Assembly: GCF_003946545.1 (NCBI RefSeq)
Contig: NZ_RHOA01000007.1
Span: 1-64,000 of the forward strand
Direction of reading: 5' to 3'
Length of the DNA: 64,000 nucleotides
From: Levilactobacillus tangyuanensis
GTDB taxonomy: Bacteria; Bacillota; Bacilli; Lactobacillales; Lactobacillaceae
Notes under the pieces: model-generated
What the model was told of the DNA's origin: nothing
The model's input: only the letters and a program-made list of their open reading frames with translations
The model's database searches: none
Made by a program: the position numbers and the translations under genes
In this document: one piece after another, positions 7,146 through 53,174 of the stretch
Layout of the letters: each line of letters begins with the position of its first letter
How positions within the stretch are numbered: the stretch's first letter is position 1

Positions 7146-7154
7146 CTCACAGAT

Positions 7155-7225
7155 TGGGCTAGCTGGATTCGAACCAACGCATGACGGGATCAAAACCCGT
7201 TGCCTTACCGCTTGGCTATAGCCCA
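7155..7225 (-). tRNA. tRNA-Gln (TTG), copy 1
   Basis: Full cloverleaf: acceptor arms TGGGCTA/TAGCCCA, D-arm GCCAAGCGGTAAGGC, anticodon loop TTTTGAT (anticodon TTG), T-loop GGTTCGAATCC. CCA is not encoded. Confidence 0.95.
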
Positions 7226-7237
7226 ATTATAAAAAAT

Positions 7238-7309
7238 GACCCGTACGGGATTCGAACCCATGTAGCCGCCGTGAAAGGGCGGTGTCTTAAACCACTTGAC
7301 CAACGGGCC
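7238..7309 (-). tRNA. tRNA-Glu (TTC), copy 1
   Basis: 72 nt, acceptor GGCCCGT/ACGGGTC, anticodon loop CTTTCAC (anticodon TTC), T-loop GGTTCGAATCC. It lies 12 bp upstream of tRNA-Gln copy 1 and is co-transcribed with it. Confidence 0.95.
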
Positions 7310-7466
7310 ATACACTTTCGTTGAATGTTTTGCATTGCTCATTCAATAAATTCATTATGCATCTAATTCTGAATAAAATCATTAGACAAACCAAGCAATT
7401 TGACCATTATTTGGAAATTAATGACCAAAACAGCATGTGCTCATCCTTTATCTGTATTTAGACAAT
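7310..7466. repeat. tRNA upstream region, copy 1 of a diverged tandem duplication
   Basis: The first 90 bases (GTTGAA.GTTTTG, CTCATTCAA.AAATTCATTATGC, GAATAAAA.CATTAGACAAA) match 7666-7755 with scattered changes. With the two tRNA pairs this makes a repeated unit of about 357 bp. The shared upstream part probably holds the promoter. Confidence 0.75.
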
Positions 7467-7499
7467 AAAAAAAGCCCAGTCTCTTATGCACGCCGACTG
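7467..7499 (-). terminator. terminator of second tRNA pair
   Basis: Minus-strand CAGTC...GACTG hairpin followed by GGC and T7, thirteen bases after tRNA-Gln copy 2. Confidence 0.8.
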
Positions 7500-7511
7500 T
7501 GACCTATCAAT

Positions 7512-7582
7512 TGGGCTAGCTGGATTCGAACCAACGCATGACGGGATCAAAACCCGTTGCCTTACCGCTTGGCTATAGCCCA
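7512..7582 (-). tRNA. tRNA-Gln (TTG), copy 2
   Basis: Identical over 71 nt to copy 1, anticodon TTG. Confidence 0.95.
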
Positions 7583-7593
7583 ATTATGAAAAT

Positions 7594-7665
7594 GACCCGT
7601 ACGGGATTCGAACCCATGTAGCCGCCGTGAAAGGGCGGTGTCTTAAACCACTTGACCAACGGGCC
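7594..7665 (-). tRNA. tRNA-Glu (TTC), copy 2
   Basis: Identical over 72 nt to copy 1, anticodon TTC, 11 bp upstream of tRNA-Gln copy 2. Confidence 0.95.
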
Positions 7666-7871
7666 ATACTGTTTCGTTGAACGTTTTGTCTAACTCATTC
7701 AACAAATTCATTATGCGACGAATATTGAATAAAAGCATTAGACAAAGCCTGAAAAGTGTCAAAAAATCCATTTATTAACATTATTCCTGTTTTGTATAGC
7801 TCAAATTTGTCAAAACTAAACTAAAATAGAATTATCTAGATTTCCTACACTTAAATTAAAGGAGTTTCCTC

Positions 7872-48703: not shown

Positions 48704-50614
48704 CTAGTTAACTTTAGCGATCTTTCCTTGTTCAATATAAACACTCAAGATGGCAATGTCGGCTGGGTTAACCCCACTGATCCGCGTTGCTTGGGCTAAG
48801 GTTTCTGGTTGAATCTTCTTTAATTTTTGATGAGCTTCCGTGGCTAAACCATCGATAGCATCGTAGTCAATGTTGGCGGGAATCGTCTTGGCTTCCATCC
48901 GCTTCAACTTCGCCACATTCTCTTCGGACTTCTTAATGTAGCCCGCATACTTCAGGGAAACCTCAATTTCCTCAATGATGTGTCGATCGAGTGGCTGATC
49001 TGGTGCCGGGATAAAGTCCAACAACGTGGCGTAGGTCACGTAGGGCCGCCGCAGGAAGGCCGCCGCAATGATACCGTCTTGCAACGGCTTGTCGCCATGT
49101 TGGCCAACGAACTCGTTCACGGCATCGCTAGGCTTGATACGAATGCTGTTCAACCGTTCGATCTCGGTATTGATGGCCGCACGCTTAGCCAAGAAGGCTT
49201 CGTAGCGGTCATCGCTGATCAATCCCAGGTCGTGACCTTTCGTGGTTAACCGCAGGTCGGCGTTATCATGCCGCAGGATTAACCGGTATTCGGCCCGGCT
49301 CGTCAACAACCGGTAGGGTTCATTCGTCCCCTTGGTAACCAAGTCATCCACCATGACACCGATGTAGGCATCGGAACGTTGTAACGTGAAGCCTGGCTTG
49401 CCCTGGGCCCGCAGTCCGGCATTAATCCCGGCTAAGAGTCCTTGACCAGCGGCTTCTTCGTAACCCGACGTCCCGTTGGTTTGGCCAGCGGTGAAGAGGT
49501 TCTTCAGCAGCTTGGTTTCCAACGTTGGCCGTAATTGATAGGGTGCAACCACGTCATATTCGATGGCGTAGCCGGGCCGCATCATTTGGGCATCCTCTAA
49601 CCCCTTAACGGAGTGCAGAATCTTCTGTTGCACTTCTTCAGGCATTGAGGTTGAAAGGCCTTGAACGTACCATTCATCCGTCTTCCGGCCTTCTGGCTCC
49701 AAGAAGATTTGATGACGAGGCTTGTCGGCAAAGCGGACAATCTTGTCCTCAATGGATGGGCAGTAACGAGGGCCAACCCCTTCAATCACACCGGTAAACA
49801 TGGGCGCACGGTCCAGATTTTCCCGAATAATTGCGTGGGTCTTCTCGTTGGTGTAGGTCAACCAGCAAGACAATTGGTTCTTCAATTCCAGGTAGGCACT
49901 ATCTGGCGTGGTGAAGCTGAAATGATTGGGTTCTTCATCCCCAGGTTGCTCTTCGGTTTCATCATAATTGATGGTGTTCCCATCCACTCGTGGTGGGGTC
50001 CCGGTCTTGAATCGTTCCAAATCGAAACCATACTTGGGCAGGTTAGCCGTCAGCTTGGTTGCGGGTTGAGAGTTGTTAGGACCGGATGAGTACATCAATT
50101 CACCGATGATGATCTTTCCCCGAGCGGCGGTTCCGGCGGCGATCACGACGGACTTAGCGGCGTAACGCGCCCCTGTGTTGGTGATTACCCCTTTACATTC
50201 ACCGTCTTCGACGATCAGGTCATCCACGATCCCCTGACGTAAGGTCAGGTTCGGTTCCTTTTCAATGGTATGCTTCATTTCGGCATGGTAAGCATGCTTG
50301 TCGGCTTGTGCCCGTAAGGCCCGCACGGCGGGACCCTTACCGGTATTTAGCATCCGCATTTGGACGTAGGTCTTGTCAATATTACGACCCATTTCGCCCC
50401 CGAGGGCATCGATTTCCCGGACGACGATCCCCTTTGCGGGACCCCCAACGGAAGGATTACATGGCATAAAGGCCACCATATCCAAATTAATCGTCATCAG
50501 TAGTGTCCGGTTGCCCATCCGCGCTGCGGCGAGGGCTGCTTCACTACCAGCATGACCAGCACCAACCACGATAACATCGTAGTCGCGACCGGCATATTCC
50601 TTGATTTCAGTCAT
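48704..50614 (-). CDS. mnmG: tRNA uridine-34 carboxymethylaminomethyl synthase subunit
   Basis: 636 residues. With MnmE it makes the cmnm5U modification at the wobble base of several tRNAs, using FAD, NADH and methylene-THF. The FAD loop [25 protein letters not shown] (Cys region) and GTPPRVDG are conserved. The ATG at 50614 gives the family length; in-frame codons up to 50650 have poorer spacing to GAAGGGAAT. It follows mnmE by 52 bp. Confidence 0.96.
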
Positions 50615-50666
50615 GGTTTTTCGATTCCCTTCATGTTGACTCATCGCCAACCATTTTCTCTTCTGA

Positions 50667-52061
50667 TTATTTTCCTAAACAGAACTGGCTAAACAGTTGG
50701 TCTAGTAGCTCATCTTGGTAACTGTCACCGGTGATTTCTCCCAGTAAGTCCCAGGCCCGCGTCATGTCGATTTGAACCAGGTCCACTGGCATCCCCGCCG
50801 CAATCCCATGCATGACGTCGGACAAGGCATCGCTAGCCTGATGTAAGAGGCCAATGTGCCGGGCGTTTGTCACCATGACATTGTTTTGGTTGGATTCAAT
50901 GCCTTCATCGAAGAACAGGTGGGCAATCGTGGTTTCCAATTGATCCATCCCTGTACTCTTCAAAATGGAGGTTTCAATGATCGGACTGTCACCGGCAGCG
51001 GCCTTAACCGCCGTCAGATCAAGCTGTTGTGGCAGGTCGGTCTTGTTTAAGATCAAGATTCGTTGATTAGCCGCCGTGGCACTGAGCAACTTTTTATCTT
51101 CGGCCGTCAGTGGTTCGCTGGCGTTCAGAACTAAGATCACCAGATCGGCGGTATCAATGGCCTTCAACGACCGTTCGACCCCGATTTTCTCGACCTTATC
51201 CGTCGTATCGCGAATCCCGGCGGTGTCGATTAACTTCAGGGGAACCCCCTTGACGTTGACGTATTCTTCAATCACGTCACGCGTGGTCCCAGCCACATCG
51301 GTCACGATCGCCTTGTCTTCATGCAACAGATGGTTTAACAGGCTACTCTTCCCGACGTTAGGCCGACCGACAATCGCCGTGGCCAAGCCTTCACGCAAGA
51401 CCTTCCCCTGCTTAGCCGTCGCTAACAGAACCTTAATCTGCTTCTGAACGGACTGAGCCTTCTCCAACAGCATCTTCGTTGTCATCGTTTCCACGTCGTC
51501 GTATTCAGGATAGTCGATGTTAACTTCGACCTGCGCCAAGGCATCCAGGATGTCCTGTCGCAAATGACGAATTAACTTGGACAGATCACCATCCAGTTGA
51601 TCTAAAGCCACCTTCATCGACTTATCGGTCTTGGCCCGAATCAAATCCATCACGGATTCGGCCTGCGTCAAATCGATTCGACCATTCAGGAAGGCCCGCT
51701 TGGTATATTCACCCGGTTCGGCCAATCGTGCCCCGTAACTCAGGCACAACTGAAGAATCCGGTTCGTCGCCACGATCCCACCGTGACAGTTAATTTCAAT
51801 AATATCTTCCTTGGTGTAAGTCTTAGGCGCCCGCATCACGGTTACCATGACTTCATCAACTTCTTCATTCGTTTCAGGGTCAACGATGTGGCCATAGTGA
51901 ATCGTATGGCTCGCAACCTGACTTAAATCGGCGCCCTTAAACAGCTTGCCGGCGACGTCAAAGACCTCTTCGCCAGATAGCCGAATGATCGCAATGCCCC
52001 CCTCACCAGGTGGGGTAGAAATTGCCGCAATCGTATCAAATTCCGTTGTGGTGACTGCCAT
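50667..52061 (-). CDS. mnmE: tRNA modification GTPase
   Basis: 464 residues: N-terminal THF-binding domain, helical domain, inserted G domain ([26 protein letters not shown]) and the C-terminal CLGK. The Cys is the family's conserved one. Partner of MnmG. AAGGAGG precedes the ATG. Upstream is a 350-bp region with its own promoter, alternate hairpins and a terminator, so mnmEG are controlled apart from jag. Confidence 0.96.
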
Positions 52062-52119
52062 GAGTCATCCTCCTTTTTCTATCAAACACTGCGCTTCGTC
52101 TGTAGTCCTTATCCTGTTC

Positions 52120-52172
52120 CCGACCAGTAGCGGTCAGTTTCCGTATCCGGACCCGTACCGACCGATAGCGGT
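52120..52172 (-). repeat. direct repeat of a 15-nt hairpin motif in the mnmE leader
   Basis: Minus-strand ACCGCTATCGGTCGG (52158-52172) and ACCGCTACTGGTCGG (52120-52134) differ at two positions. Each can fold as a short hairpin. They lie 60-110 bp upstream of mnmE. Confidence 0.55.
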
Positions 52173-52177
52173 ACTGA

Positions 52178-52288
52178 CTAGTCTAGCCCGCTAACGCGCC
52201 CACAGGACCTGTCAGCCACCTCCTGAGTGATGGCGCTAAACCACCGTTCAAAACTGGCCAACATCCCTGGCGTATCATTTATAGCCAT
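52178..52288 (-). CDS. possible 36-aa leader ORF
   Basis: The ATG lies directly after the T8 tract of the terminator and reads 36 codons to TAG (MAINDTPGMLASFERWF...). GTAGGTG ten bases upstream could serve as a ribosome site. It would be translated only in read-through transcripts. No homologue known to me; the frame may be open by chance. Confidence 0.25.
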   Translation of the reverse strand: MAINDTPGMLASFERWFSAITQEVADRSCGRVSGLD

Positions 52289-52339
52289 AAAAAAAAGCAC
52301 CTACTCCGCGCCACCTAACCGGGCACGGATAAAGTACTT
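52288..52339 (-). terminator. terminator between jag and mnmE
   Basis: Minus strand: AAGTAC / GTGCTT lower stem, 5-nt internal loop, CCGTGCC / GGCGCGG upper stem, then T8. It ends jag transcripts and also any short RNA from the promoter just upstream. Confidence 0.8.
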
Positions 52340-52352
52340 TCACTACTTTATC
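52328..52352 (-). ncRNA. alternative hairpin overlapping the terminator
   Basis: GATAAAGTA / TACTTTATC, perfect 9-bp stem with loop GTGAAAG. Its 3' arm is the 5' lower arm of the terminator, so the two cannot form together. This is the plan of an attenuator. The ligand or trigger is unknown. Confidence 0.5.
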
Positions 52353-52379
52353 GTAAACATGATAAGAATGATTGTCTTC

Positions 52380-52408
52380 ACTATAAGGGCAATCCCACCA
52401 TTTGTCAA
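52380..52408 (-). promoter_or_regulatory. strong promoter upstream of mnmE
   Basis: Minus-strand TTGACA (52403-52408, perfect), 17-bp spacer, TATAGT (52380-52385). It begins eight bases after the jag stop codon. Start near 52373; distance to the T tract about 85 nt. Confidence 0.75.
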
Positions 52409-52415
52409 ACCAAAC

Positions 52416-53174
52416 TTAGGCCGGCTCAATCACAACCGCCCGGTGGGGTTCCTTACCCGCCGAATACGTTGTGACGAAGCGGTTCTTCGCCAATACGGCG
52501 TGAATCTGTTTCCGCTCAAATGATGGCATCGGGTCCAGGTAAATTGGCTTACCCGTGGCTACGACCTCGCGGGCGGTATTGTCCGCCAAACGGGCCAGGG
52601 TCACGCGCCGCCGTTCCCGATAGCCGGCCACGTCCAGTTCAACCTCGACGTGTGCCGCCCCATGATGGTTCAGGAACAATTGCGCCAGGCTCTGTAGCGC
52701 ATTGATGGTCCGCCCATGCTTCCCAATCAACAGGCCTTCCTTGTCCGTGGTAAATTCGAGCTGAACCTGGCGGTGACCCGCGCTGGTTGCCGCAACCGTG
52801 GCATCAATTCCTAGTTGGTCGACGATCGTGCCGAGATAGTCCTCAACCGCACTAATCGCCGCCTCCCGCCGAGCCTGACGCTCTGCCGGGCTCACGGTTG
52901 GCTGTTCGGGTTCATCGGCCGGTGCAGCAGGTGCCACCGGTTGTTGCACCTTGAACACGGGGGTCTTCTTCACCGGTGCTGGTTTGGCGGCCGCCTGATC
53001 GGCAGCAACGACCTTCAACGTCACATCCACCATGGCATCACGTTGACCGATACCGAGCCACCCTTTACGCGCCGCGGTTACAACGTTAATGGTCACCTGA
53101 TCGCGGTCACTGTTCAGTGCTGCCAAGCCAGCCTGAATTGCCGCCTCTTCTGTTTTCCCCGTAAAGATGGTCAT
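52416..53174 (-). CDS. jag: RNA-binding protein Jag/KhpB
   Basis: 252 residues: Jag_N domain (about 1-50), a Pro/Ala-rich linker, a KH domain (IGKHGRTINALQSLAQLF near 150) and an R3H domain to the end (YLDPMPSFERKQIHAVL). It binds RNA and is linked to cell elongation and division in relatives. AGGAATC lies before the ATG. Separated from yidC by a terminator. Confidence 0.95.
   Translation of the reverse strand: MTIFTGKTEEAAIQAGLAALNSDRDQVTINVVTAARKGWLGIGQRDAMVDVTLKVVAADQAAAKPAPVKKTPVFKVQQPVAPAAPADEPEQPTVSPAERQARREAAISAVEDYLGTIVDQLGIDATVAATSAGHRQVQLEFTTDKEGLLIGKHGRTINALQSLAQLFLNHHGAAHVEVELDVAGYRERRRVTLARLADNTAREVVATGKPIYLDPMPSFERKQIHAVLAKNRFVTTYSAGKEPHRAVVIEPA

Follow-up and report, generated by a model that had tools for sequence, protein, structure and literature searches.

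The window analysed here is a 64,000-nucleotide (nt) stretch of Levilactobacillus tangyuanensis DNA (contig NZ_RHOA01000007.1) in which the gene mnmE (50667-52061) lies behind a short leader made up of a promoter, a hairpin termed H2 and an intrinsic terminator, all on the minus strand, as are all the features of the window described below. On comparative sequence evidence, this leader is probably a tRNA-sensing transcription attenuator of mnmE, and of mnmG behind it, that works through a kissing contact with tRNAGlu or tRNAGln. The H2 loop, GUGAAAG (52337-52343), is the exact reverse complement of CUUUCAC, the entire anticodon loop of tRNAGlu(UUC) in the same genome, and the loop variant GUCAAAG is the exact reverse complement of CUUUGAC, the tRNAGln(UUG) anticodon loop of many relatives. 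The MnmE-MnmG complex modifies U34, and its substrates include both of these tRNAs. The window belongs to Levilactobacillus, and its nearest named relative is L. senmaizukei, with a 99% identical MnmE.

Complementarity of the H2 loop to tRNA anticodon loops

A total of 52 tRNAs were found in the L. tangyuanensis genome, of which 50 could be parsed, giving 37 distinct anticodon loops. Only one of these, that of tRNAGlu(UUC), is an exact complement of the leader loop; the tRNAGln(UUG) of this genome has the anticodon loop UUUUGAU, which has no such match, and the leader has the Glu version. Nearest-neighbour rules give -6.5 kcal/mol for the 7-bp loop helix, the most favourable value among the 37 loops, and kissing loops are often more stable than nearest-neighbour sums. 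The window holds two copies of the proposed ligand, at 7236-7310 (anticodon loop CTTTCAC at 7277-7271) and 7592-7666 (the same loop at 7633-7627); they belong to two tandem tRNAGlu(UUC)-tRNAGln(UUG) pairs at 7152-7666 that look like a recent duplication. An origin of the element from a tRNA gene or its antisense was rejected, as the H2 stem bears no relation to the anticodon stem of tRNAGlu and complementarity ends at the loop.

For comparison, mnmE loci were fetched by MnmE protein similarity (the best 80 of at least 553 relatives), covering 12 named genera of Lactobacillaceae, Enterococcus and a few unplaced Lactobacillus. The loop reads GUCAAAG in 39 of these loci, GUGAAAG in 36 and GUCAAGG in five (three Furfurilactobacillus and two Loigolactobacillus), and the GUCAAGG loops also pair throughout, with one G-U pair to U33. 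A wider set gave GUCAAAG 94, GUGAAAG 89 and GUCAAGG 5 in 188 of 189 loci, although here the pattern search itself required GU(C/G)AA(A/G)G, many loci were fetched by a motif-trained model and several genomes occur twice; the 80 protein-chosen loci are free of this bias.

The variable loop base changes together with the tRNAGln types that a genome carries. Among the 70 genomes in which a tRNAGln was recognised, a C-loop occurs with CUUUGAC in 42 and without it in one, while a G-loop occurs without CUUUGAC in 25 and with it in two, among the matches listed (Fisher P 1.4e-15, relatedness ignored); when the genomes are gathered into 43 rough groups the same four counts are 29, 1, 11 and 2 (Fisher P 1.5e-7). 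The table joins 46 genomes from a set of 55 with 24 of 50 further handles, the other 26 being uncounted. L067, L076 and L102 enter it as G571, G572 and G076; G226, G165, G040, G586, G050, G065, G057 and G081 were left out of the 55, their tRNAGln being unrecognised or not among the matches listed, as was G205, which is the same genome as L040. The switch of loop and tRNAGln recurs in Lactobacillus (g2), in Lentilactobacillus and in family f3 (genus g31 versus most others). Within Lactobacillus g2, G270 has only UUUUGGU together with a G-loop, whereas G106, G121, G144 and G043 combine CUUUGAC with a C-loop. As expected of a tRNA-responsive leader, the loop is complementary to a tRNA and changes along with it, with three exceptions in 70 genomes. 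Meanwhile, when one mismatch was allowed, a tRNAGlu-like match was found in 53 of the 55 genomes, with none in G022 and G036 among the matches listed, and wherever a tRNAGlu loop is shown among those matches it is CUUUCAC. As a separate observation, G106, G121, G144, G043, G270 and G098 each contain two copies of tRNAGln-like arms around the loop UUUUGGU, with G at position 37; these are unusual and are pattern matches.

This covariation bears on the reading in which the leader is an attenuator whose H2 is stabilised by a protein, such as KhpB/Jag or MnmE-MnmG, or by a small ligand, with the anticodon-loop match secondary. The stem and loop of H2 are conserved as a binding site would be, KhpB binds small RNAs (sRNAs), tRNAs and untranslated regions in Enterococcus according to the part of the report covered (PMC10117718), and jag lies directly upstream in 48 of the 80 loci. 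A protein or ligand site does not explain why the C/G loop base tracks the tRNAGln repertoire, however, and jag is absent from the upstream stretch covered in 21 of the 80 loci, so that such a mechanism is rather unlikely.

Compensatory changes in H2

H2 (52328-52352), the proposed antiterminator, was delimited by sequence complementarity and comparison of relatives. It has a 5' arm GATAAAGTA (52352-52344), the loop GTGAAAG (52343-52337) and a 3' arm TACTTTATC (52336-52328), forming nine base pairs with 100% complementarity. Across 68 distinct segments of the GUA type, 95.6% of cells pair, and 22 cells are changed on both sides, compared with a shuffle mean of 7.0 and a maximum of 13; none of 500 shuffles reached 22. 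Sliding one arm by -2 to 3 positions lowers pairing to 34-48%. When the outer arms are swapped between segments the mean energy weakens from -7.7 to -6.2 kcal/mol in the GUA class (standard deviation 0.23, 20 shuffles) and from -6.0 to -4.5 kcal/mol in the other 41 segments. The innermost three pairs also vary among the 109 distinct segments (GUA/UGC 58, GCA/UGC 40, GUA/UAC 10, ACA/UGU 1) with the loop kept. Judged by these compensatory changes, H2 is a real structure. The original prediction, made from the letters of the window, had proposed either a regulated leader for tRNA modification genes or a stand-alone sRNA, to be judged computationally by conservation or compensating changes in the stems of related genomes; both are present, and this check did not refute the regulated leader.

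Alternatively, a partial terminator without regulation, placed behind a promoter, could set a low, constant mnmE level, the loop then being kept mainly for its AAAG, which the predicted folds do pair with CUUU at the base of the terminator. Yet the GU(C/G) of the loop and the complementary outer arms of H2 are conserved or covarying and are unneeded by a terminator, and this explanation is highly improbable.

Predicted promoter and alternative folds

The promoter eight bases past jag (which ends at 52416), the 9-bp hairpin and the T8 terminator that made up the proposed leader were all located as described. The promoter (52380-52408) consists of TTGACA at 52408-52403, a 17-bp spacer and TATAGT at 52385-52380, with 11 of 12 matches. 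It was the single promoter-like site in the 1.4 kb scanned; since shuffled sequences average 1.2 such sites, the match by itself proves nothing. Among distinct relatives, a promoter-like pair lies at most 90 nt upstream of the loop in 84 of 109, compared with 251 of 1090 shuffles. The predicted short leader transcript (52289-52373), whose putative start is placed from the -10 box, would be about 85 nt long.

The terminator (52289-52340) ends in T8 at 52296-52289; its lower 5' arm is AAAGTACTT (52340-52332) and its 3' side ends in GGTGCTTT. This lower 5' arm is composed of the 3' half of the H2 loop and most of the H2 3' arm, and because of this sharing H2 and the terminator are mutually exclusive, as had been claimed at the outset. 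A further hairpin, H1, is formed by the 5' arm TCATTCTTATC (52371-52361) with 52352-52340 and competes for the H2 5' arm, resulting in a three-way arrangement; 34 of 109 distinct leaders show the strict H1 pattern. The region 52376-52285 folds at -31.5 kcal/mol (z -5.0), better than 200 of 200 shuffles. Forcing H2 costs a mean of 7.3 kcal/mol relative to the free fold (range 0 to 12.6, 109 distinct leaders), which makes the terminator the predicted default. The arrangement that defines an attenuator, a terminator with a competing and exclusive hairpin ahead of the gene, is present in the L. tangyuanensis leader and at 80 of 80 relatives' loci.

Three stretches of the leader region show features of their own. 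The terminator 3' side at 52310-52297, GGAGUGGG(C), is strongly conserved in relatives, with much of it opposite an internal loop, and its conservation is explained neither by H2 nor by the terminator stems. The leader 5' end, AATCATTCTTATC (52373-52361), is letter-identical in Levi-, Lacti-, Lenti-, Secundi-, Ligi- and Liquorilactobacillus loci and absent in others, a constancy that exceeds what H1 pairing needs; a second genus-wide match of AATCATTCTTATC, located where the rpoA coding sequence begins in the L. tangyuanensis genome, was taken as chance. Finally, about 226 nt containing inverted repeats (52288-52062) separate the terminator from mnmE, and in the 80 relatives the distance from the end of the T run to the MnmE match is 14 to 226 nt, with a median of 38 nt that the spacing in the window greatly exceeds. 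The next gene beyond mnmE (48704-50650), which from its protein sequence we take to be mnmG, is presumably part of the same transcript.

Conservation and linkage to mnmE

A strong match to the element occurs in 34 of 35 genomes of the genus; the remaining genome, which is 72% complete, gave a chance-level match only (E 0.4). At 80 of the 80 protein-selected loci the core AGT(C/G)AA(A/G)GT(A/G)C lies upstream of mnmE and is followed by a terminator. The jag gene is directly upstream in 48 of these and at a greater distance in 11; in the other 21 no jag was found within the upstream stretch covered, and from this varying position it follows that the element travels with mnmE. A covariance model matches 178 of 246 Lactobacillales genomes at E up to 0.1, and a class-wide search gave matches in 11 of 299 genomes at E up to 0.01, 10 of the 11 within the order, with stricter filters used in both searches. 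The 68 order genomes without a model match include, among those listed, some Lactobacillaceae and members of the Streptococcaceae-like family f4 (Streptococcaceae by inference), in which the best match listed has E 0.08.

The element adjoins mnmE at 29 of 29 loci from the order search other than the L. tangyuanensis locus, and at 44 of 47 further loci, which include a few genomes twice; at L189 the distance is about 540 nt. This linkage regardless of the upstream neighbour, together with the compensatory changes in H2 and the overlapping terminator at 80 of 80 loci, supports the regulated leader of the original prediction, acting in cis; the proposed sensed signal, tRNA, is an addition of the present analysis.

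Several other matches were set aside or stand alone. L157, whose genome is within Bacilli but not of this order, and L172 have neither core nor mnmE and are chance hits, L119-L121 were rejected with the core missing, and other model matches in the L. tangyuanensis genome have E 0.2 or worse. L184 (G157:C23:14900-16400, minus strand, near position 977) is an additional copy of the element, its genome also carrying the copy in front of mnmE; no mnmE lies alongside L184, and the nearest sizeable downstream open reading frame is transposase-like by eye. Two or three model matches were found in each of 24 order genomes, and further regulated genes are possible.

The unlinked copy at L184 would suit a model in which termination yields the functional product, an sRNA of about 85 nt acting in trans on tRNAGln and tRNAGlu (as sponge or chaperone) or on other targets, with linkage to mnmE reflecting origin only. 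So would the presence of a dedicated promoter and a strong terminator, and the complementarity of the loop to abundant tRNAs. A trans-acting RNA, however, needs neither the retention of mnmE through changing neighbourhoods nor alternative folds that overlap the terminator, and as the sole function this is quite improbable; the short transcript may have an additional trans role besides attenuation in cis.

Discussion

The data allow a model of mnmE attenuation to be proposed. By default, the nascent leader would fold into the terminator and transcription would stop after about 85 nt, with H1 holding the H2 5' arm in this state in many genera. In L. tangyuanensis free tRNAGlu(UUC), or in C-loop lineages tRNAGln(UUG), would then kiss the H2 loop with its whole 7-nt anticodon loop, hold H2 together and occupy the AAAG needed at the terminator base, leading to read-through into mnmE. 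As the kissing helix hides that AAAG, tRNA binding should antiterminate, and in the simplest reading the enzyme would be induced by its own tRNA substrates. Physical binding of tRNA, its role as an on-switch, the use of free tRNA and a preference for unmodified U34 are what we infer from the comparison.

A tentative and somewhat doubtful extension is that the leader reads the state of wobble modification, with unmodified tRNA and tRNA carrying 5-carboxymethylaminomethyl(-2-thio)uridine 34 (cmnm5(s2)U34) binding differently, so that tRNA modification would be kept constant. Binding would be sensitive to the state of U34 because the kissing helix takes in all of nucleotides 32-38, among them U34.

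Several points weigh against tRNA sensing or its extension to modification. The s2U34 base is expected to strengthen rather than weaken pairing, which fits poorly with simple homeostasis. The terminator, too, depends on the AAAG of the loop and, given AAAG, two of 64 loops would match some tRNA of the L. tangyuanensis genome exactly, so that the match within this genome is by itself weak and only suggestive; the next best partner, tRNAAla(CGC), forms five pairs with the loop at -5.1 kcal/mol. For H2, the number of pair types, a weaker two-sided measure, is reached by three of 500 shuffles, and both the H2 and the coupling statistics ignore relatedness. Outside the L. tangyuanensis genome, tRNAs were recognised by sequence pattern and not by a tRNA caller. 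As for the exceptions to the coupling, the C-loop genome L077 (a Liquorilactobacillus mali draft) showed UUUUGAU only, and the G-loop genomes G194 and G076 retain a CUUUGAC tRNAGln, although the latter two are compatible with the model because both have tRNAGlu with CUUUCAC.

T-boxes are the established tRNA-reading leaders, and the mnmE leader resembles them as a Gram-positive leader with competing antiterminator and terminator and a proposed reading of the tRNA anticodon by base pairing. In contrast, it is about 85 nt long and without a stem I/specifier domain, it matches an entire 7-nt anticodon loop where a T-box matches a codon triplet, and the gene behind it modifies tRNA whereas a T-box-regulated gene charges it. 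Rfam 15 gave no match on the leader, either over 52040-52440 at E up to 10 or when the whole window was scanned at gathering thresholds, and with no Rfam match and no room for stem I the mnmE leader is not a T-box. The pairing of two fully complementary 7-nt loops recalls RNA I and RNA II of ColE1, where kissing loops serve plasmid copy control and, unlike here, the partner is an antisense RNA. The mutually exclusive hairpins (H1, H2 and the terminator) are also reminiscent of the trp-type attenuators of amino-acid biosynthesis genes, but the present model needs no translation, and no conserved reading frame for a leader peptide was seen in the leader sequences, which were inspected by eye only. 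A further non-T-box leader reported to respond to tRNA is the Xanthomonas SAM-I riboswitch, which, in the part of the report covered, senses uncharged initiator tRNA independently of the anticodon (PMC7270179); in the mnmE leader, by comparison, the anticodon loop is the match and control would be on termination.

Among the titles and abstract openings searched, no description of an mnmE leader was found. In the searched part of PMC2965389 trmE, thdF and gidA have no occurrences (mnmE was not among the words looked for), and mnmE and trmE have none in that of PMC7724050, whose conserved, unplaced sRNA_112/sRNA_005 could be anything, the mnmE leader included. In the covered portion of the Enterococcus gradient-profiling (Grad-seq) paper, mnmE is mentioned as lying next to khpB (PMC10117718), and in that of a T-box review, adaptation to tRNA modification is given as a question still to be answered (PMC7583486).

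The conservation of an mnmE leader complementary to the anticodon loop suggests a new kind of tRNA sensor, with the element present in the majority of the genomes sampled from an order that has food and gut species among its members. To our knowledge, little is known of how the levels of tRNA-modifying enzymes are regulated, and we know of no other cis-acting RNA that senses a tRNA modification, so that this leader would be the first if modification sensing were true. If the model holds, a minimal hairpin able to capture an entire anticodon loop would represent a second and far simpler design beside T-boxes; it would provide a small, portable tRNA sensor, and the setting of tRNA-modifying enzyme levels would become directly testable.
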